Shown here piece by piece: positions 6,670 to 16,620 of a stretch of DNA of 32,203 bases. Source of the DNA: Candidatus Methanoperedens sp. GTDB lineage: Archaea; Halobacteriota; Methanosarcinia; Methanosarcinales; Methanoperedenaceae. Under the pieces are notes generated by a model, which was not told the origin of the DNA, did no database searches, and saw only the letters and a program-made list of their open reading frames with translations. The stretch lies in NCBI GenBank assembly GCA_028717345.1, contig JAQUNZ010000026.1:1-32203 (forward strand), written 5' to 3'. The stretch's first letter is position 1, and every line of letters begins with the position of its first letter. Position numbers and translations under genes: made by a program.

Positions 6670-8478
6670 ATGACCACAGATATCAAAGACGCGAAAAAAC
6701 TCCCAAAATCTCCGGGCGTCTACCTTATGAAAGACATGGAGAATAAGGTCATCTATGTGGGAAAAGCATCATCCCTGAGGGACAGGGTTAGCCAGTATTT
6801 CAGGGAGTCAGACTCGCCTAAAACACGGATGCTAATGCGGAATATCGAAGGACTTGAGTATATCGTCACAGGAACAGAAGTCGAGGCGCTTGTTCTGGAA
6901 TCAAACCTGATAAAAGAGCATGCTCCGCGGTATAATGTGAAACTTCGGGATGATAAGGCGTATCCTTTCATCAAGATAACGAACGAGGAATATCCGCGCA
7001 TCTGCATTGCGCGGCGGCGGGAGCGGGACGGTGCGCAGTACTTCGGTCCTTACCCGGATTCAAGGGCTGTAAGGGAACTTATCAAAATGGCATCAAAGCT
7101 TGGAATAAGAAGATGCAGAAAGAAGCTGCCCTGCCCCGCATGTCTCAATTTTCATATAAAACAATGCGCTGCGCCGTGTGCTGGAAATGTGACAGAAGAG
7201 GCGTACCAGAGCATTATCAAGAACGTATCTGATCTCCTCAAGGGAAAACACAAAGAACTGAGCCAGTCCCTGTCAGAAGAGATGGAAAAGCTGTCGCAAA
7301 TGCAGGAATATGAGAAAGCTGCAGGCAAAAGGGACCTGTTGAATGCTCTTTCGACACTTTCTGAAAAACAGCGCGTGAACGTGCCGGGTCATAAAGATCA
7401 GGACATAATGGCATGCGCGATATCTGGAAACACAGCAAGCCTGCAATTATTCCATATTAGCGATGGAAGACTTCGAGGGCGGGATTCTTTTACACTTTCA
7501 GCAGCAAACAGCGATGAAAATGAGGTTATTTCAAGTTTCATAAAGCAGTACTACCTGGAAGCAGAGCCGCCCCAGGAAATCATTGTTCCCATCGAGCTTC
7601 CTGATGGTTCGATATCGATATGGCTAGCTGAAAAGGGCGTAAAGCTCAAGACACCAAAGAATCCTGTAGAAAAGGGTTTGATGAAACTTGCTATGGAGAA
7701 CACAAACCTGCTGCTTGATATGAATGCGCTCATTAGAAAAAAGGACGCAGCTCTAATGGAATTGCAGAATGCTCTTGACCTTCCTTCTTCACCGTCCGTT
7801 ATTGAGGCTTTTGACATCTCGAACATCAGCGGTACGGATGCCACAGGGTCACTTGTAGTTTTCGTGGATGGGAAACCAGACAAAAAGAACTACAGGCGGT
7901 TTAAGATAAAGACCGTGGGAGGTACGGATGATTTTGCCATGATGGGAGAAGTTGTAGGACGCGCTTATGCGAGGAGGAAAGACGAAGGAAAAAAGATGCC
8001 AGACCTTGTTTTAATTGATGGGGGAAAAGGACAGCTTAGCGCCGCACTTGCAGCAATTGGCAGCCTGGGGCTGTCTCTTGATATGGCGGCGCTTGCCAAG
8101 GAATTCGAGTATATTTTCCTGCCCGGAAGGGAGACGCCCGTCATTCTTCCAGAGGGCTCGCCAGCGCGGAAACTTGTGCAGAGGATACGGGATGAAGCGC
8201 ACAGGTTCGCAGTTGGATATCACAGGAAATTGAGGGGGAAAAGGATCATTGAGTCTGAACTGGATAAGATCGCAGGTATCGGGGTGAAGAAGAAACAGGC
8301 GTTGCTGCGGTATTTTGGGTCTGTGGAGAAGTTGAGGAAGGCTGATGTCGAGGAGATAGGAAAGGTGCCGGGGATCAGGAAAAAGGATGCTGAGGAAGTG
8401 TGGAGGCATTTCAGTAAGAAAGCGAACCAGCCTCATCCTAGCCTGAAAGCTTCAGAAGCCACTTCCACAGTGGCATGA
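6670..8478 (+). CDS. uvrC: Excinuclease ABC subunit C
   Basis: Nuclease of UvrABC nucleotide excision repair, making both incisions around bulky DNA lesions. The 602 aa protein has all domains. The GIY-YIG nuclease is at about 12-95 (PGVYLMKD, VIYVGKASSLRDRV, ALVLESNLIKEHAPRYNVKL). A cysteine cluster is at about 150-170 and a UVR helix hairpin near 200-235. The RNase H-like nuclease is at about 380-530 (IEAFDISNISGTDATGS, then PDLVLIDGGKGQL). A helix-hairpin-helix pair sits near the end (LDKIAGIGVKKKQALLRYF, then VEEIGKVPGIRKKDAEEV). The ATG has no clear Shine-Dalgarno. The last 41 nt overlap the convergent ATPase gene, so the final residues form a tail without obvious function. UvrABC in archaea is generally regarded as acquired from bacteria. 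Confidence 0.97.
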   Translation: MTTDIKDAKKLPKSPGVYLMKDMENKVIYVGKASSLRDRVSQYFRESDSPKTRMLMRNIEGLEYIVTGTEVEALVLESNLIKEHAPRYNVKLRDDKAYPFIKITNEEYPRICIARRRERDGAQYFGPYPDSRAVRELIKMASKLGIRRCRKKLPCPACLNFHIKQCAAPCAGNVTEEAYQSIIKNVSDLLKGKHKELSQSLSEEMEKLSQMQEYEKAAGKRDLLNALSTLSEKQRVNVPGHKDQDIMACAISGNTASLQLFHISDGRLRGRDSFTLSAANSDENEVISSFIKQYYLEAEPPQEIIVPIELPDGSISIWLAEKGVKLKTPKNPVEKGLMKLAMENTNLLLDMNALIRKKDAALMELQNALDLPSSPSVIEAFDISNISGTDATGSLVVFVDGKPDKKNYRRFKIKTVGGTDDFAMMGEVVGRAYARRKDEGKKMPDLVLIDGGKGQLSAALAAIGSLGLSLDMAALAKEFEYIFLPGRETPVILPEGSPARKLVQRIRDEAHRFAVGYHRKLRGKRIIESELDKIAGIGVKKKQALLRYFGSVEKLRKADVEEIGKVPGIRKKDAEEVWRHFSKKANQPHPSLKASEATSTVA

Positions 8479-9706
8479 AAATTATCTTTATCCCATCAAC
8501 GATTTCGACTTTCTCAAAATCCTTAGTAATTATCAGACCGTGATCTAATCCTGAATCCCTGGCACATGCCACAAGCCCGCGAACTTCACGGTCTTTTGTC
8601 TTTTCACTGTTCAATTCATATGCGACCTGGATTATTTCTTTGATCGCAAGCCCCTCACGTATTACGAAATCCGCCTCAAATCCTTCCCTGCTTTTCCAGT
8701 AATGGATATCGTGCTGCTGCGGCATATTTCGTTTCAGTTCCAGGAAGACCGCATTCTCAAACAACCTGCCAGAGTCTATCCTGCCGCTCATGGAGTACAT
8801 GAACCCCGTATCTCCGAGATATGCCTTCCTGGGGTATTGCGTGCGGTCTTTTATTGTATGGGAGAATATACTGGCAAAAAAGAAAAGATACCCTTCCTGC
8901 GAGTATTTTTCAAGGTCAAGCAGACTTTCCTTACCGATCTTGTGACCCAGCCCCTTAAAGAAGTTCAGGCATTTTGACGCTGAAAAATAGGGTGTTTCGA
9001 TTATGTATTTTCCAAATAGTTCTACAGTTGTTATACTGTTGTCCGACATTTCTGCTACGTCAAGTCCTATTATGTCCTTAAAGTATGAGTTCAGGATCCG
9101 TATCTTATCGGTTTTATCTCCTGTCAGCACAACTTCGGGAAATCCGCCATATATGAGATACTCCTCAAGCGCCCGTTCTATCCTGCCTGTTCCAGCAACT
9201 GTGAGTTCGGCTTTGAGCCCTTTGAAACTCAGGAATTCCCTGAAAGATAGCGGATACATTTCATAATGAATCATCCGCCCCCGCAATGGTCTGGACGGGA
9301 TCACAAGCTTCCCGCGGGACGAGCTGACTATCAGGTGCAGCTTTCCTTTTAATAATTCGTGGTTCCTTGCAAGCCATCCCTCCCAATCGTGCACGCCGGT
9401 GATCTCATCAAGCATCAGGAATCCCCTGTCTCCGAACCATTTGACCACATCATCGAGCACGGTTCTATTATCCTTGACCCTGCTGTCCTCAAGGTTGATA
9501 TACGCTGCATTTTCGCCTTCTCTGGCAAGCTCCTGCTGGAGCATTATCAGGATGCTGGATTTTCCCGACCTGCGTATTCCTGTAATGCCGATGATCTTGA
9601 GGCGGGAATTCGATATCAAGCTCCCCAGATCAAGCGCCCGCTTCTTCAGCGACTTTTTCCCGGCGTATGTTTTCCATTCCTCAAATATCATTTCTGATGC
9701 ATTCAT
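8438..9706 (-). CDS. AAA_14/DUF4143-type P-loop ATPase
   Basis: 422 aa member of the widespread archaeal and bacterial family of ATPases with a C-terminal DUF4143 (PD-(D/E)XK-like) domain. Its physiological role is unknown. Walker A is at 43-50 (GIRRSGKS) and Walker B at 96-101 (FLMLDE). A sensor-like LIVSSSRGKL follows, then MYPLSFREFLSFKGL and YLIYGGFPEVVL, both hallmarks of the family. The C-terminal part shows YLGDTGFMYSM, LFENAVFLELKR, and HYWKSREGFEADFVI with IIQVAYEL, the nuclease-like core. Members are patchily distributed and often found at variable loci. That fits its 41-nt overlap into the uvrC 3' end and its position beside decayed sequence. The ATG lies 36 nt from a TATA element overlapped by an inverted repeat. 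Confidence 0.88.
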   Translation of the reverse strand: MNASEMIFEEWKTYAGKKSLKKRALDLGSLISNSRLKIIGITGIRRSGKSSILIMLQQELAREGENAAYINLEDSRVKDNRTVLDDVVKWFGDRGFLMLDEITGVHDWEGWLARNHELLKGKLHLIVSSSRGKLVIPSRPLRGRMIHYEMYPLSFREFLSFKGLKAELTVAGTGRIERALEEYLIYGGFPEVVLTGDKTDKIRILNSYFKDIIGLDVAEMSDNSITTVELFGKYIIETPYFSASKCLNFFKGLGHKIGKESLLDLEKYSQEGYLFFFASIFSHTIKDRTQYPRKAYLGDTGFMYSMSGRIDSGRLFENAVFLELKRNMPQQHDIHYWKSREGFEADFVIREGLAIKEIIQVAYELNSEKTKDREVRGLVACARDSGLDHGLIITKDFEKVEIVDGIKIIFMPLWKWLLKLSG

Positions 9707-9748: not shown

Positions 9749-9894
9749 TTTCTGTTTTTATAAAGAACGATTCACTTCCCTTCTCTTCATGCGGGAGCAG
9801 ACCTGTACGGTGGGATTTTAACCGGGTGGATATAGCGCCATTACATTCATTTATTTTTGATATTTTTTTGTTGTTCTTTCTTTGCTGTGCTTCA

Positions 9895-9940
9895 AGGCAC
9901 GCCGTCACCGACGGTATACCCCGTACGATGTACGAGGCCT
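9895..9940. repeat. Cluster of nested dyads
   Basis: The hairpin CCGTC-ACC-GACGG (9902-9914) is followed by CGTAC-GAT-GTACG (9922-9934). The pair is enclosed by AGGC (9895-9898) and GCCT (9937-9940). The 8-bp palindrome GGTATACC at 9913-9920 joins the two hairpins. The segment is GC-richer than its flanks and can form a three-way junction. No known element is recognised. Confidence 0.45.
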
Positions 9941-10011
9941 GTATATAGTGTTTTTTAAGAATAATAAATTATTTCCTAATATTTGTATGCTTTATGAGAT
10001 GAAATATTTTT

Positions 10012-10049
10012 ATTAAAACCTATTATCTCTTCTTCTAATAGGTTTTAAT
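10012..10049. repeat. 14-bp perfect inverted repeat at the end of the gltX fragment
   Basis: ATTAAAACCTATTA (10012-10025) and TAATAGGTTTTAAT (10036-10049) pair perfectly around a 10-nt pyrimidine loop. The right arm ends on the first base of the gltX-fragment stop codon. It could be a transcript terminator or 3' stabilising hairpin for minus-strand transcription, although no T-run follows on that strand. It could also be a mobile-element end. The intact gltX has no such hairpin. Confidence 0.5.
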
Positions 10050-10336
10050 TACTTATGCGTAAAATAAGCCACTACCTCATCATCTTTAACACTATCAATC
10101 CTCACGAACCCGAACCTCTCGAACTGCACCACCTTATCCACCTCTCTCTCCATCCCGTGCTCTCCTATGCCTGAATATTCGCCATCCGGGGATAACACCC
10201 CGACATTAAGCCCATCCAAAGGGACCCGGTGGATGATCCGCGCCTTCTCTTTCTTCACAAGGTCCTTATCAGTACCGATGAACTTCACCCTACTGAGGCT
10301 GATATCAGTCTCGCCCAGGCGCGGATCGTCCCAGCC
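10049..10336 (-). pseudogene. Decayed gltX 3' fragment with two internal deletions
   Basis: Translating the minus strand gives GWDDPRL, then GETDISLS, then (R)VKFIGTDKDLVKKEKARII and on through VVQFERFGFVRIDSVK to YFTHK and a stop. These are three separated pieces of the intact GluRS encoded at 14920-16620, in the same order and frame, with about 24 and about 90 residues removed between them. The last 79 residues are nearly complete but diverged (for example IIHRVPLDGLNVGV against IIHWAPLDGLKVRV). The frame is open upstream but has no proper start and lacks all catalytic motifs, so it cannot be a synthetase. A GTG at 10288 could allow a 79-residue anticodon-domain-like peptide. Confidence 0.85.
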
Positions 10337-10360
10337 AGTTAATGAAGGAAATAGATGGAA

Positions 10361-10370
10361 AACTAAATAA
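10361..10370 (+). promoter_or_regulatory. TATA-like element for the RHH multidomain gene
   Basis: AACTAAATAA is centred about 31 nt before the ATG at 10398. There is no Shine-Dalgarno, so a leaderless transcript is likely. The element begins about 25 bp beyond the last base homologous to gltX. Confidence 0.4.
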
Positions 10371-10397
10371 GTAATAAATGAGCATTATTATCATAAC

Positions 10398-11870
10398 ATG
10401 ATTCTCAGGAAAAATATCTCATTAAATGAGGATTATTTAAAAAAACTTGACCCCCTGATGCAAAAGCACAATGGCAATCTCAGTGCGGTTATTCGTGAGG
10501 TGATCGACCTTGCAGATGTAGCATTCCAGGATCCGGATTCTGTAAAAAAACTAATTTCAGGATTAAAAAAGGAGCAGAATCTGACGTCATCAACTCTCGT
10601 CTGGGCATTGAAAAATCTGGGGGGCAGGCTTCCTGATGAAGAGACGGTTCATAACATAATTGGCAATGACATTTCATCTCTTTCTGATGTGGAAAGACGC
10701 TTAAATGAACTTGGAAATGAAGTCTATTGGGGAATGTCAATTAAGATCAATCCTGATAATAATATCCAGCCAAAAAGCGCTACATTTTCAATAGATGGAA
10801 AAAACCCTGATGCGAACAGGTATCTGGCTGCTGTTATTGCTTTATTTGTAGCAAAAAAGTTTGGTCTTGGTATTTCAGAGATCCGTTGTATCAATGGATC
10901 TTTAGAAATGAACCTGATAAAAGGTGAAAATAGCTGGATACATAACAAAATCCTGGAGAATTTTGGGCGTATGGATGCGGTTTTTTCTGAATTGCACAAA
11001 AAACCTGATTTCTGGAACGTCCTGATACATCTTTATGCAAAGATGAACTACGATATGTCAGTGATACCAAGACAGCTTTTTGAAGAAATCCAGGGGGCAG
11101 GAATGACATATAAAATCACTAACTGCATTGAGAGGTTTTGTGGTTGTCCCATAAACCAGATTCCTCCTGAAGATTTTCTGGAAAATTTGAAGGTTCTTTA
11201 TAAAACTATGGGCTTCATAGAAGATATCGATATCAATAATGAGTCTATAATAATACATCACAGGTTCTCCAATCCTGATGCTATTGGAAAGCTTGCCAAT
11301 AATTTTATAGAATTATTGCATCTGAATGGACGTACCTACAGCTCCACAGCTGGAGAAAATCTCATAGTCCTTAAGCAACTTCCTGAAATTGGCAAGATCC
11401 TTATTCGAATGGTGGAGGATATTAAAACAAGAGAAGAACCTGTTGCGGATTATTATACAGATCTATTTAACATTTTAAAAATGCTAAAAAATGTACCTTC
11501 AAATGACGAGTTCATAAGATCGCTTGGCACCAGGTTCGGTACTAAAATAATTGAAACTTATAAATATAAAAAAAATATATCTGAATGGGATGCAGGGACA
11601 TTTATAAAGTATTTACAGGATATGAATGATATCCTCAAACAGGAGTCAAAATGGTCAAATGTTAGCGAAAATATCATTTGTGGCAAAATTATGAACTGTC
11701 CTTTAGTAAAAATGGATGCCCAGATCAACAGTAATAATTGTATGTTTATTAAAAGCTTGTACGATATATGGATTTCGAATGCTTTCGGCGAACACATTGA
11801 AAGAGTCCATAATATGTCACAACCATCAGGAAACGAATCTTGTGAAATCTATATTGCATTAAAATCATGA
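10398..11870 (+). CDS. Multidomain protein with N-terminal ribbon-helix-helix, function unknown
   Basis: 490 aa and not confidently recognised. Residues 1-45 look like an RHH DNA-binding domain (LRKNISLNEDYLKKLDPLM, then GNLSAVIREVIDLADVAF). Residues about 60-105 are helical (SSTLVWALKNLGGRLPDEET). The middle includes a cysteine cluster at C243, C248 and C250 (CIERFCGCPI). The C-terminal about 120 residues carry C428, C434, C448 and C482 and end with GNESCEIYIAL. That ending faintly recalls V4R-type small-ligand domains, but this is a guess. There are no membrane segments. The gene sits alone before a membrane histidine kinase and a response regulator, in a cassette bracketed by gltX sequence. 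It may be a transcription regulator that senses a ligand or metal. Base composition is AT-richer than the flanking housekeeping genes. Confidence 0.75.
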   Translation: MILRKNISLNEDYLKKLDPLMQKHNGNLSAVIREVIDLADVAFQDPDSVKKLISGLKKEQNLTSSTLVWALKNLGGRLPDEETVHNIIGNDISSLSDVERRLNELGNEVYWGMSIKINPDNNIQPKSATFSIDGKNPDANRYLAAVIALFVAKKFGLGISEIRCINGSLEMNLIKGENSWIHNKILENFGRMDAVFSELHKKPDFWNVLIHLYAKMNYDMSVIPRQLFEEIQGAGMTYKITNCIERFCGCPINQIPPEDFLENLKVLYKTMGFIEDIDINNESIIIHHRFSNPDAIGKLANNFIELLHLNGRTYSSTAGENLIVLKQLPEIGKILIRMVEDIKTREEPVADYYTDLFNILKMLKNVPSNDEFIRSLGTRFGTKIIETYKYKKNISEWDAGTFIKYLQDMNDILKQESKWSNVSENIICGKIMNCPLVKMDAQINSNNCMFIKSLYDIWISNAFGEHIERVHNMSQPSGNESCEIYIALKS

Positions 11871-11877
11871 TAAGTAA

Positions 11878-11932
11878 AGGTTGGCGAAAAAGAAATCGAA
11901 GTGTTATGGAAGGTAGGAGATGGTGCCAACCT
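11878..11932. repeat. Inverted repeat AGGTTGGC/GCCAACCT in a spacer
   Basis: Perfect 8-bp arms at 11878-11885 and 11925-11932 are separated by 39 nt, just after the RHH gene stop. They could form a terminator-like stem or an operator pair for the following kinase gene. There is no T-run, so the role is open. The remainder of the 157-bp spacer shows nothing recognisable. Confidence 0.3.
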
Positions 11933-12027
11933 CAATACATACTATTGCTGCACAAGAACATAATTACTGTTGAGAAAAACAGTGCTACTGAAATCTATGA
12001 TCGGAATCAACATTGCAGGATAATTGA

Positions 12028-14208
12028 ATGACCAAGATAAAACATGCTCTTCGACTTCTGATAATAATTGTTTCGATCATTATTATCGGGATATTCCTTG
12101 AGCCGTTCAGGAACGTATCACCTTTATTGAAAGATTATTTCGAGGTCACAACAGAACTATTGCCTCTTGTCATGTCTTTTTCGATCTTTGTGACGACATG
12201 GTTCGCATATGATAAGAGCCGGGATGACAATTCATTCTTTCTTGGCGCATCTTTCTTTGTAATGGGGCTTATCCAGTTATTTCAGATGCTTTCCCATCCA
12301 TATATGCCTGATTTTATCACGCCGAATTCTATTGAAAAAGCCACAGCTTTCAGGTTCCTGCTATGGCCAATATCTGTTCTCTTATTTTTTGTGAGTGCAT
12401 ATATTTATCGTGATTCACTTCCCGGGATAATCAGCAAATATGTCATGTTCGCATCTGCAATTATTTTATCTTTAATATCCCTGACACTGGTATTATTTTA
12501 TCCGCAAATATTGCCTGAAGTTCATCCTATTAAAGGCGATATTTCCAATGCATGGATATTAATGGCGTTCATCACGTCGATTTTCATATTATATGCAAGC
12601 TATCTGTACACAAAAAGACTTGAGACGACCAAAGATAAGAATATAATTTGTTTGATATATGGTTTTATAATAATATATTGTAGTTTTTTTGTAGATTTCT
12701 TTTACATATATTCAGGAAATTTGCTTCAAGCCGCTGGTTTCTATTTTGTCTATCTTGCAATGTTCAAATCATCTGTCGAGAAACCCTATGAAAAGCTTGC
12801 TATTGCAGAACACAGGATGCGTTATCTGGCAGAGGAGAAATACAGGAACCTGTTCGATAATGCCAATGATGCCATTGTAATAACCGATACGCAGGACAGG
12901 ATACTTTCATGGAACAAAAGCGCTGAGAGTATTTTTGGATGGACTGCAGAAGAACTGGCAGAAAAAAAGCTCTTTGATGTGGTGGTGCCGCCGCGACTGC
13001 ATACCGAGATCAACAACATTATGAACGATGTTATTTCCGGCAGCAGAACCAGGGGTTTTGATTTTATAAATCTCCATAAGACTGGAAAGGAGATAGATGT
13101 CAGCATGAACATGTCTCCTTTGCTTGATTCTGATAACAAGATTATCGGAATGTCAAGTATCATCAGGGATATAACCCAGAGAAAGCTTGCTGAAGAAGCA
13201 TTACGCAAAAGTGAAGAGCAATTCCGATCCCTCATTGAGAACTCATCAGATATTATCACGATTCTTGGAGAGGCAGGGGTCATTTACTATCTCAGCCCTT
13301 CTATCGAGAGGTCTTTTGGATATAAACCGCAGGAACTGATTGGAAAGAATATTTCGGTATTCATCCATCCGGATGATTTGCCGCAATTTACTGATGTTTT
13401 TATTGAAAAGATCAAGAATCCGAATATAACCTCATCCATCGAGGTACGAGCCAGGCATAAAGATAACTCCTGGCGTATTCTTGAATCCATTGGCAAAATG
13501 CTTCCTCCGGATCTGGCTGTCAAGGGTATTGTTCTTAATTCCCGTGACATAACTGAACGAAAGCAGGCTGAAGAACAGATCCGATCGTCACTCCACGAAA
13601 AAGAAGTGCTATTAAGAGAGGTTCACCACAGGGTCAAGAACAATATGCAGATCATCTCAAGTCTGTTAAGACTTCAGTTGGATTTCAGTAAAGATAAATA
13701 TATTATCGAGATGTTGAATGAGAGCCGTAATAGAATTATTTCGATGTCTCTTATTCATGAAAAACTATATCGATCCAAAGACTTTACAAAGATCGATCTT
13801 AAAGGATATATTGTTGACCTGGTCAATGGTCTGTTCCAATCGTATGGGATCAACATGAATAAGATCGCATTGAAAATAAATGTTGAAGACATTCCGCTGG
13901 GTATTGATTCTGCAATTCCATGCGGATTGATCATTAACGAGCTTGTAACTAACTCGTTAAAACATGCATTTCCAGGGGACAGGAATGGTGAAATCAGGAT
14001 AATTCTTCATTTGAGCCGGAATAACATGATCGAACTTATGGTTGGTGATAACGGGATTGGCATCCCGGAAAATCTTGAAATAAAGAACGTTAAATCACTT
14101 GGTTTGCATCTTGTTACCATGCTGGCAGAAGATCAACTGAATGGGAGTCTGGATATTAATAAAAATAATGGAACTGAATTTACAATTAAATTTAGAGGTG
14201 TGAAATAA
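12028..14208 (+). CDS. MASE3-PAS-PAS histidine kinase (HisKA_2 type)
   Basis: Membrane sensor kinase of 726 aa. Residues about 8-248 contain about seven hydrophobic segments and match the MASE3 sensory domain (SFSIFVTTWFAYDKS, DDNSFFLGASFFVMG, HPYMPDF). Two PAS domains follow, at about 267-385 (YRNLFDNANDAIVITD, ending IIRDITQRK) and about 395-512 (FRSLIENSSDIITILG, ending SRDITERK). The HisKA_2 dimerisation domain has REVHHRVKNNMQIISSLLRL with the phosphoacceptor at H533/H534. HATPase_c is at about 620-726 (INELVTNSLKHAFPG, then VGDNGIGIPE and a C-terminal G-box), so the catalytic motifs look complete. The stop shares its A with the ATG of the response regulator (TAATG), marking them as a cognate pair. 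The signal is unknown. Confidence 0.93.
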   Translation: MTKIKHALRLLIIIVSIIIIGIFLEPFRNVSPLLKDYFEVTTELLPLVMSFSIFVTTWFAYDKSRDDNSFFLGASFFVMGLIQLFQMLSHPYMPDFITPNSIEKATAFRFLLWPISVLLFFVSAYIYRDSLPGIISKYVMFASAIILSLISLTLVLFYPQILPEVHPIKGDISNAWILMAFITSIFILYASYLYTKRLETTKDKNIICLIYGFIIIYCSFFVDFFYIYSGNLLQAAGFYFVYLAMFKSSVEKPYEKLAIAEHRMRYLAEEKYRNLFDNANDAIVITDTQDRILSWNKSAESIFGWTAEELAEKKLFDVVVPPRLHTEINNIMNDVISGSRTRGFDFINLHKTGKEIDVSMNMSPLLDSDNKIIGMSSIIRDITQRKLAEEALRKSEEQFRSLIENSSDIITILGEAGVIYYLSPSIERSFGYKPQELIGKNISVFIHPDDLPQFTDVFIEKIKNPNITSSIEVRARHKDNSWRILESIGKMLPPDLAVKGIVLNSRDITERKQAEEQIRSSLHEKEVLLREVHHRVKNNMQIISSLLRLQLDFSKDKYIIEMLNESRNRIISMSLIHEKLYRSKDFTKIDLKGYIVDLVNGLFQSYGINMNKIALKINVEDIPLGIDSAIPCGLIINELVTNSLKHAFPGDRNGEIRIILHLSRNNMIELMVGDNGIGIPENLEIKNVKSLGLHLVTMLAEDQLNGSLDINKNNGTEFTIKFRGVK

Positions 14209-14909
14209 TGGCGCAAACTCGGATATTGGTCGTTGAAGATGAAGTCATTGTAGCTGACGACATCAGAAGAAGCTTGAAGAATCTGGGGTATGATGTCCCT
14301 TCAATAGCATCTTCTGGTGAGGCGGCGATTAAAAAGGCGGAAGAGACCAGACCGGATCTGGTGTTGATGGATATAATGCTTCAGGGTAAAATGGATGGGA
14401 TTGAGGCTGCGGGCAACATAATTTCCAGATTTGATATTCCAGTGGTATATCTTACAGCATATTCTGATGAAAAGATCCTTGAAAGGGCAAAAATTACAGA
14501 ACCATTTGGATACCTGATCAAACCATATAAGGACAGGGAATTGGAAATAAATATTGAGATAGCACTTTACAAACACAGGACTATGAAGGAATTAAAAGAG
14601 AGCAGGAAGTGGTTCCACGGAACGCTCAACAGCATAAGCGATGCTGTTATAGCTACTGATCCACAGGGTTGTGTGATATTCATGAACCCTCCTGCCCAGT
14701 CCCTGACCGGATGGACTTTAGAAGAAGCACAGGATAAACCCCTGAAAGACGTATTTAATATCGCGAGCGAAACGACTGATGCTAAGGGGATGCAAACCAT
14801 ACTTATGGATAAGAGCAAAAAGAAGATACAGATTCAGAGCAGCAATAATATAATTAAGGATGACAGAGGGAATATTATCGGGATAGTTCTTGTTTTTCGT
14901 AATTGCTGA
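14208..14909 (+). CDS. Response regulator REC-PAS, C-terminally truncated
   Basis: 233 aa. The receiver domain at 1-125 is complete: ED pair E10/D11, phosphoacceptor D55 in DLVLMDIMLQGKMDG, and the VVYLTAYSDE and FGYLIKPY motifs of regulators that pair with HisKA_2 kinases. A PAS domain starts at about 131 (WFHGTLNSISDAVIATDPQG) and runs to GIVLVFRNC. Family members normally continue VFRDITE plus a linker and often further domains, so the reading stops just where the PAS should finish. The stop lies 10 nt from the gltX stop, that is, at the junction of the cassette with gltX. This suggests truncation by recombination. A ribosome binding site (GAGGTG at 14195-14200) lies inside the kinase gene. 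Phosphotransfer could still work. Confidence 0.88.
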   Translation: MAQTRILVVEDEVIVADDIRRSLKNLGYDVPSIASSGEAAIKKAEETRPDLVLMDIMLQGKMDGIEAAGNIISRFDIPVVYLTAYSDEKILERAKITEPFGYLIKPYKDRELEINIEIALYKHRTMKELKESRKWFHGTLNSISDAVIATDPQGCVIFMNPPAQSLTGWTLEEAQDKPLKDVFNIASETTDAKGMQTILMDKSKKKIQIQSSNNIIKDDRGNIIGIVLVFRNC

Positions 14910-14919
14910 CTTTTCAAAA

Positions 14920-16620
14920 TCACTTGTGCGTAAAATACGCCACTATCTCATCCCCGTTCACGCTATCAATCCTCACAAAGCCGAACCTCTCGAACTGCAC
15001 GACCTTATCAACCTCTTTCTCCATCCCGTGCTCACCCATACCGATAAATTCCCTGTCAGGCGATAAGACCCTGACCTTCAATCCATCAAGGGGAGCCCAG
15101 TGAATGATGCGTGCTTTCTCCTTTTTTACAAGATCCATATCAGTGCCTATGAATTTTACCTGCAGTGGTGAGATGCTGATCACCTCTATATTGTAAAGAT
15201 CCTTAAGGCGCAGCCTCTCGCCTTCTTTGAGACTATCTGCATCATTCTTTGTGATCAATACCGTTGTTCCCGCAGGTATCTCCCTGATGCCCCCGCGGGT
15301 GGGATGTAGCGGAGCCTTCGCTATTTTCGGTTCTGCGCCCTCTACTTCAAGTTCGACAGGGTCCCATACAAAGAAATACCTGTTCGCGACAGGATCGATG
15401 ATCTTGCGGTTCTCTGCATACAGCGTGTCCAGGCTGAGGCTGATATCAGTCTCGCCAAGCCCAAGATCAAGCATGAACTTGCGAAGAGCCTCCGGGAGTA
15501 TGCCCCTTCGTTTTATCGCCCTGATAGTAGGCAACCGGGGGTCATCCCATCCGGAATACTGACCTTCTGCTATCGCTTTCTTGATACCGCTCGTGCTGAG
15601 TTTCCCGAACTCATGTATCTGGACCCGCCCCCAGTGCATGGTCTCAGGGTACGTCCAGCCCATGTATTTATAAACATACCTCTGTCGTGTTTCGCTGTCT
15701 GTTAAGTCCTTGCCCCGTATGATCAATGTAGTCCCAAGAAGATGGTCTTCCACCGCGCCTTCAAAATCCAGAAGCGGCCAGACGCAGTATTTACCGCCTA
15801 CTTCAGGTCTGGGATGCGGTGTCTTTATTATTCGAAATGCCACCCAGTCGCGGATAGCCGGGTCTTTGTGAGCGATGTCTGTCTTGATGCGAAGCACCGC
15901 CTCCTGCTCTTTGTATTCACCTGCAAGCATCTTCTTCCAGAATTCAAGGTTCTTTTGCGGTTTTTCATTCCTGTGCTGGCATGCTTTCTTTTCATCCTTC
16001 AAAGCCTTGAAAGTCTCCTGCTCGCAGAAACAGACATAAGCCCCTCCTTTTTTTATCAATTGTTCAGCGACTTCATAATATTTATCTATCCTGTCAGATG
16101 CAATAACCACTTCATCCGGCTTTGCTCCCAGCCATTCACAGTCCTCAAGATACCATGTATAAGCCTCAAGCATCGGGCGCTTGGTCGCAGGATCAGTATC
16201 GTCAAAACGTATAATGAGTTTGCCTTTATACTTTTTAGTGTACTCGGAGTTCACAACTATCCCGCGCGCGCTTCCAAGCGTTGGAGGACCATTGGGATTT
16301 GGCGCGAACCTCATGACAAGAGCACCCCCGACTTCAAGCGGAGGCAAACCTTTCTCAGGCTCTTTCTTTTCTTTCAGTTCTGCGATAAGTTCAGGCGCAA
16401 TCTTATTCAATTCCTCTCCCCGCGCTTCAGGCGACATCTGGTCTATCTCAACGAGGACTTCGTTAACAAGGACAGTGATCTCTTTAGCCATGGAACGAAG
16501 GTCAGGCTGCGCCATGACTTTACCCATAACCGCTCCTGCCTGCGGTGTCTTGTTATACTTGACCGCATTCTGCAAGGCGTATTTCTTAATAATAATTTTA
16601 ATCTCTTCTGTGGTTGGCAT
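14920..16620 (-). CDS. gltX: Glutamyl-tRNA synthetase, archaeal type
   Basis: Class I aminoacyl-tRNA synthetase, 566 aa. Residues 1-95 are the archaeal N-terminal extension. The HIGH-equivalent signature is RFAPNPNGPPTLGSARG at 104-120, with LIIRFDDTDP following. The KMSKS equivalent is GKLSTSGIKKAI near residue 350. A beta-barrel anticodon-binding domain fills the C-terminus, up to VVQFERFGFVRIDSVN and YFTHK, so the gene is intact. In archaea this enzyme may be discriminating or may make Glu-tRNA-Gln for amidation; the sequence alone does not decide. It starts with ATG preceded by GGTGA about 12 nt upstream. A diverged partial copy of its 3' end lies at 10049-10336 in the same orientation. 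Confidence 0.97.
   Translation of the reverse strand: MPTTEEIKIIIKKYALQNAVKYNKTPQAGAVMGKVMAQPDLRSMAKEITVLVNEVLVEIDQMSPEARGEELNKIAPELIAELKEKKEPEKGLPPLEVGGALVMRFAPNPNGPPTLGSARGIVVNSEYTKKYKGKLIIRFDDTDPATKRPMLEAYTWYLEDCEWLGAKPDEVVIASDRIDKYYEVAEQLIKKGGAYVCFCEQETFKALKDEKKACQHRNEKPQKNLEFWKKMLAGEYKEQEAVLRIKTDIAHKDPAIRDWVAFRIIKTPHPRPEVGGKYCVWPLLDFEGAVEDHLLGTTLIIRGKDLTDSETRQRYVYKYMGWTYPETMHWGRVQIHEFGKLSTSGIKKAIAEGQYSGWDDPRLPTIRAIKRRGILPEALRKFMLDLGLGETDISLSLDTLYAENRKIIDPVANRYFFVWDPVELEVEGAEPKIAKAPLHPTRGGIREIPAGTTVLITKNDADSLKEGERLRLKDLYNIEVISISPLQVKFIGTDMDLVKKEKARIIHWAPLDGLKVRVLSPDREFIGMGEHGMEKEVDKVVQFERFGFVRIDSVNGDEIVAYFTHK

Follow-up and report, generated by a model that had tools for sequence, protein, structure and literature searches.

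A second gltX 3' end in 'Candidatus Methanoperedens', a probable scar of gene insertion behind gltX

When analyzing a 32,203-nt stretch (the window, contig 26) of a 'Ca. Methanoperedens' genome (G000, a 2.54-Mb assembly), we noticed, some 4.6 kb behind an intact gltX, a second and much reduced piece of the same gene. How did a remnant of a housekeeping synthetase gene come to lie there? The remnant, below called the tail, occupies positions 10049 to 10336 of the minus strand and reads GWDDPRL-GETDISLS-R-(V)KFIGTD...THK* in a frame that is open all through, which confirms the preliminary description of three ordered, in-frame gltX pieces. The main part (10049 to 10288, minus strand) consists of the last 79 gltX codons and the stop codon. 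It matches the gltX models PRK04156.1 (positions 487 to 567) and TIGR00463 (481 to 560) and is 80% identical to the intact gltX over 244 nt (E 1e-58), in line with the earlier view of a diverged remnant and not a fresh duplication. The GETDISLS piece (10292 to 10315, minus strand; gltX codons 389 to 396) agrees with the intact copy at 25 of 26 nt and is also matched at the DNA level in relatives (26 to 27 nt, up to 96%). The GWDDPRL piece (10316 to 10336, minus strand; codons 357 to 363), assigned by its in-frame reading and by DNA matches in relatives, was recovered independently by DNA matches of 21 to 24 nt (83 to 92%) at the orthologous gltX place of 10 relatives. As the DNA of the short pieces recurs at the orthologous place, they are no chance reading. 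Codons 364 to 388 and 397 to 487 are absent, the latter replaced by one Arg codon; the cuts are 25 and 91 codons long, against the about 24 and about 90 described earlier. The first ATG, GTG, or TTG in the fragment's frame is the GTG at 10288; a usual start codon is therefore available to the 79-amino-acid part at most. A search of the whole assembly found these two gltX copies only. Directly behind the stop codon of the tail there is an AT-rich, terminator-like perfect inverted repeat with 14-bp arms (10012 to 10049), which occurs once in the assembly.

The intact gltX (14920 to 16620, minus strand) encodes an archaeal glutamate--tRNA ligase of 566 amino acids (PRK04156.1, E 2e-238; TIGR00463, E 9e-200) with Pfam domains PF00749, PF03950, and PF20974. 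Between its stop codon and the tail lies a 4.6-kb block (10348 to 14914), delimited by its homology to the sister genome G023. All three genes of the block are on the plus strand. They encode a response regulator with a PAS domain (14208 to 14909, 233 amino acids; PF00072, E 1.9e-20; PF00989, E 4.5e-11), a MASE3-PAS-PAS-HisKA_2 histidine kinase (12028 to 14208, 726 amino acids; PF17159, PF00989, PF07568, and PF02518), and a 490-amino-acid protein (10398 to 11870), with amino acid identities to G023 of 92.7%, 90.1%, and 84.1%, respectively. No match to the family of the 490-amino-acid protein was found in Pfam, NCBIfam, or PADLOC; distant relatives of 342 to 490 amino acids occur in G018 and G017, and one of those in G017 (L042 6109-7173) lies about 1.1 kb from a gltX tail. 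At the distal junction (10337 to 10347), the G023 homology of the block stops at 10348 and gltX homology begins at about 10336 to 10340, that is, within about 10 nt. No microhomology is readable at this junction, which is resolved to about 0 to 10 nt only. Beyond the tail follows uvrC (6670 to 8478, plus strand; TIGR00194, E 4.5e-173), which is the gene after gltX in the sister genome G021. The gene adjoining the tail encodes an AAA_14/DUF4143 ATPase of 422 amino acids (8438 to 9706) that matches the PADLOC candidate models PDC-S01 (E 6e-73); the other six proteins submitted to PADLOC gave no match. This ATPase gene was not found between gltX and uvrC in G021 or G023. A dispersed repeat family is represented at 9770 to 10010, between the tail and the ATPase gene, with 5 matches in G000 (itself included), 11 in G021, 12 in G008, and 6 in G023. 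Its stretch 9770 to 9945 folds no better than shuffled sequences (z -1.1), and Rfam gave no match in the window.

Comparison with the sister genomes shows what the locus looks like without the extra DNA. In G021, gltX is followed by a 134-amino-acid open reading frame (ORF) and by uvrC at +1612, and block and tail are both absent. The order in G000 is gltX, response regulator, histidine kinase, 490-amino-acid protein gene, tail, ATPase gene, and uvrC; by synteny, therefore, gltX, block, gltX end, (ATPase gene), and uvrC stand where G021 has gltX and uvrC. G023 has a counterpart of the block (89.7% identity over 4532 nt) at +6462 to +11081 relative to its gltX end, and G021 has none. The order in G023 is gltX, two histidine kinase genes, a gene for a 142-amino-acid protein, response regulator, histidine kinase, 490-amino-acid protein gene, and uvrC, with no tail; relative to G000, another 6.45 kb separates the gltX stop codon from the block. 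Since no tail accompanies the block in G023, either the tail may have disappeared from that genome or the block may have arrived by another route. A 94-nt match between the DNA behind the tail and the gltX flank of G021 was considered as an orthologous flank and rejected, as the sequence is the dispersed repeat; since it recurs elsewhere, the evidence here is positional only.

The same layout recurs in relatives. An extra gltX 3' end was found in 9 of 31 'Ca. Methanoperedens' genomes, G000 included (the others are G002, G010, G011, G016, G017, G022, G027, and G029), the profile searches for weak tails covering the 31 fetched loci. In 5 of the 27 oriented gltX loci (G000, G002, G027, G016, and G029), an intact gltX, an insert, and a tail lie on the same strand with the tail downstream. 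The inserts hold DUF4258-like and DUF2283 genes in G002 and G027 (the DUF4258 match is under the Pfam cutoff), an acylphosphatase-domain gene in G016, and a UPF0175 gene with a 110-amino-acid ORF without Pfam match in G029; inserts often carry gene pairs which, by the general nature of these families, we call toxin-antitoxin-like. The tails of G010, G011, G017, and G022 do not share a contig with the intact gltX, which was not found in G011. In G010, G011, and G022, two tails enclose antitoxin-like and ParE-type toxin genes, the toxin ORF of G022 being short and labeled by its similarity to G010. Some tails in relatives are frameshifted, some have stop codons, and some are truncated. The tail of G027 (L035 6053-6192) is split by an insertion of about 140 bp with inverted ends. 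In a tree of the 3' ends, which is short and mostly weakly supported, the ectopic tails of G010, G011, G017, and G022 group with the G029 tail (90/88), away from the gltX of their hosts, and the G002 and G016 tails group with their own gltX (84/76 and 97/88). Matches of 28 to 30 nt in G029:C128, G024:C66, and G004:C28 were discarded as chance, as were self-repeat matches of 15 to 23 nt in 5 of 80 loci (L139, L141, L167, L183, and L184). A search for tails near toxin-antitoxin relatives of the G010/G022 unit in 30 loci returned only the G010 and G022 loci themselves; one match in L200 (E 0.07 to 0.13) was taken as chance. When viral contigs were searched for a carrier with the 79-amino-acid query, 10 stretches fit a pattern and none was a relative. 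Searches of open-access papers listed no description of gltX tails for these archaea.

Pairs of relatives with and without an insert locate the event at the gltX stop codon. Behind the tail, G002 (84% nucleotide identity) and G027 (83%) have the same DNA and gene that directly follow the intact gltX in G012, so the tail in these genomes stands at the native gltX 3' end. G001 differs from G003 by a 752-bp acylphosphatase-like cassette at +4 to +755, with flanks that are 94% identical; its gene belongs to the same family as that of G016, and a possible ATAGAT repeat is the most that remains of a tail in G001. These two sets of relatives are clean filled and empty sites at the stop codon, and in G000/G021 the absence of the insert from the corresponding site follows from synteny. 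Inspection by eye of the sequences after the stop codon in all 27 gltX loci, set side by side, shows likeness for a few pairs only, among them G004/G024 and G002/G027. Among 26 loci, all of them gltX loci, the first gene downstream of gltX belongs to 22 families, whereas one family accounts for the upstream gene in 17. As a control, 3'-end direct repeats outside ORFs were counted for 451 ORFs of at least 80 amino acids in 452 kb, taken from loci that had been fetched for gltX or its tails; the entries are gltX (4 loci), one other ORF, which is short, and a gltX neighbor in G000.

What is observed is a block between gltX and tail, a block-free sister, relatives with the same arrangement, insertions that fall cleanly at the stop codon, and a mosaic gltX. 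We propose, with a probability of about 70%, that the fragment is the displaced 3' end of gltX, the scar of a homology-anchored insertion of genes behind gltX. Incoming DNA, made up of a gltX end and the block of response regulator, histidine kinase, and 490-amino-acid protein genes, would have paired with the resident gltX. The hybrid gltX would keep one complete 3' end, with the block now behind its stop codon, and the superseded 3' end would stay on the far side and then lose codons 364 to 388 and 397 to 487. The anchor would be homology in gltX, and the distal end may have been joined illegitimately, as in homology-facilitated illegitimate recombination. Recombination had already been considered in the preliminary description, and here we agree with it.

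Which 3' end, that of the intact gene or the tail, was resident first? In the proposed course of events it would be the tail, presumably now without function. The window's intact gltX is mosaic, with some tracts closer to G021 and others to G023: at nt 1261 to 1500 it sides with G021 over G023 by 36 to 4 positions and at nt 1501 to 1740 with G023 over G021 by 25 to 12. Such tracts run throughout gltX, so a breakpoint near the 3' end (about nt 1500) is not special in itself. The tail is 82.9% identical to G002, 82.1% to G012, and 78 to 80% to G021, G023, G008, and its own gltX, and in the tree it stands next to G012 with weak placement (86/37). Because it falls outside the sister clade, the tail may instead be foreign and the intact 3' end the resident one.

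Some integrative elements attach at the 3' end of a gene and restore it. A tyrosine recombinase may likewise have used the gltX 3' end as its attachment site, the displaced end being the attR side, and we regard this as unlikely. The window insert resembles such elements in its entry at the stop codon, in the gene left intact, and in the duplicated end on the far side, and insertions that begin at the gltX stop codon are what site-specific integration would give. A phage-integrase-family gene does lie 60 nt behind the intact gltX of G025 (L085 67-903; PF00589, E 3.4e-12), and several short tails begin at about the same codons (QFERFG), namely, those of G017, G022b, G029, and Methanosarcina. 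However, this integrase is the only one behind gltX among the inserts examined with Pfam; the window block and the small cassettes of G002 and G016 have none. The duplicated ends are not of constant length, and tail starts are widely spread in 'Ca. Methanoperedens', from position 4 to position 164 of the 243-nt 3'-end profile. The Methanosarcina tails share upstream sequence and so may be copies of a single event. Relatives of the G025 integrase (43 to 58%) occur in G003, G006, G014, G023, G024, and G030. As the agent they were rejected because none of 19 other loci searched has a gltX end alongside, one match with E 3.6 being taken as chance. The variable tail starts and the lack of integrases favor homology-anchored recombination over an att site, without settling the matter.

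An old tandem or ectopic duplication of gltX, with one copy decayed and the genes between inserted later, is still less probable. The kept order and frame of gltX in the tail and the in-frame deletions, which resemble gradual decay, would fit it. However, two full gltX genes were found in no relative examined, the tail of G002 and G027 holds the native 3' site before the native downstream gene, and several loci have the same layout with different inserts. The plain old duplicate of the preliminary description is thus unsupported: the second copy is cut off from gltX by a block that is missing in the sister genome, and relatives repeat the arrangement with other inserts.

We also tested whether the open frame speaks for function. 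The dN/dS check proposed earlier for the 79-residue part gave a low omega, 0.087 for the tail against 27 intact copies, yet this does not discriminate, as intact copies against each other give 0.059 (351 pairs). The tail has changes at 2 of 108 sites that are invariant in intact copies (1 of 49 first and 1 of 54 second positions); nearly all of these substitution statistics have a weak basis of about 240 nt. Most of the divergence dates from the time when the sequence still worked as gltX, and dN/dS is therefore uninformative: the omega and the 2 of 108 sites are what a recently displaced gene end would be expected to show and do not imply present selection, and even a dead tail should not give a value near 1. 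Two deletions would both keep the frame by chance in about 1 of 9 cases, and under simulated neutral substitutions the 79 codons stay free of stop codons with P 0.61 after 20 and 0.38 after 45, so the open frame alone is weak evidence of function. Survival as a 79-amino-acid protein kept by selection and resembling the C-terminal anticodon-binding part of GluRS is very improbable: the open frame, the few changes at invariant first and second positions, the low omega, and a weak PF20974 match (E 5.9e-6) would favor it, but the omega is inherited from life as gltX and slightly above that of intact copies, the match is partial (profile positions 31 to 69 only), other tails have stops, frameshifts, or truncations, and the front pieces have no start of their own.

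Displaced gltX ends are also found in Methanosarcina. In UBA5 and UBA289, the last 76 to 80 nt of gltX recur 3 to 4 kb downstream. Among 185 genomes of the order, second short gltX matches were found in at least 6 genomes of the genus of UBA5 (G150, G151, G152, G168, G173, and G175); since at most 4 candidates were scored per genome and the tail of UBA5 itself was missed, these counts are lower bounds. The Methanosarcina tails have in common both the sequence that precedes their gltX part and a terminator-like flank after it, which suggests that they are probably copies of few events, perhaps one. Their starts are more uniform than those in 'Ca. Methanoperedens', and surface-protein-like (beta-helix) genes are linked to them in the two loci read.

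Of most interest is that the gltX 3' end is used repeatedly. Tentatively, the gltX 3' end of Methanosarcinales may be a recurrent capture site, where small cassettes (toxin-antitoxin-like pairs, acylphosphatase genes, and two-component systems) would enter at the stop codon and bring a new gltX end along; tail-cassette-tail units would then move elsewhere as integrase-free, integron-like arrays, as in G010, G011, and G022. Module insertion that displaces 3' ends has been described for Rhs/type VI secretion effector loci, where homology-facilitated illegitimate recombination has been proposed (PMC5361080). As there described, a conserved gene part serves as the anchor, a new module comes in, the old 3' end is moved downstream, and repeated insertions lead to arrays (PMC5361080). 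In those loci a polymorphic toxin gene is displaced and has its end swapped for a different one (PMC5361080), whereas at gltX the anchor is a housekeeping synthetase that receives an equivalent end, so that the gene is unchanged and only its neighbors change. Phage S1249 also inserts beside gltX, in Aggregatibacter; its attB is 49 bp long and lies between csp and gltX (PMC10087258), and it is thus an intergenic site of an integrase-bearing phage in a bacterium and not the gltX 3' end. If the proposal is true, displaced gene ends are a readable record of insertions behind a housekeeping gene in uncultured archaea, and they point to homology at the ends of core genes as an entry route for toxin-antitoxin and regulatory genes without an integrase. 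For such a remnant, dN/dS cannot separate function from inheritance.

Two gltX genes of relatives are themselves unusual. The only copy found in G017 (L043) lacks about 85 codons (288 to 372) and has a broken frame, an assembly error or a real change. The gltX of G010 (L038) has an in-frame insertion of about 100 amino acids right before the KLSTSG motif, which we take to be its KMSKS-like motif.
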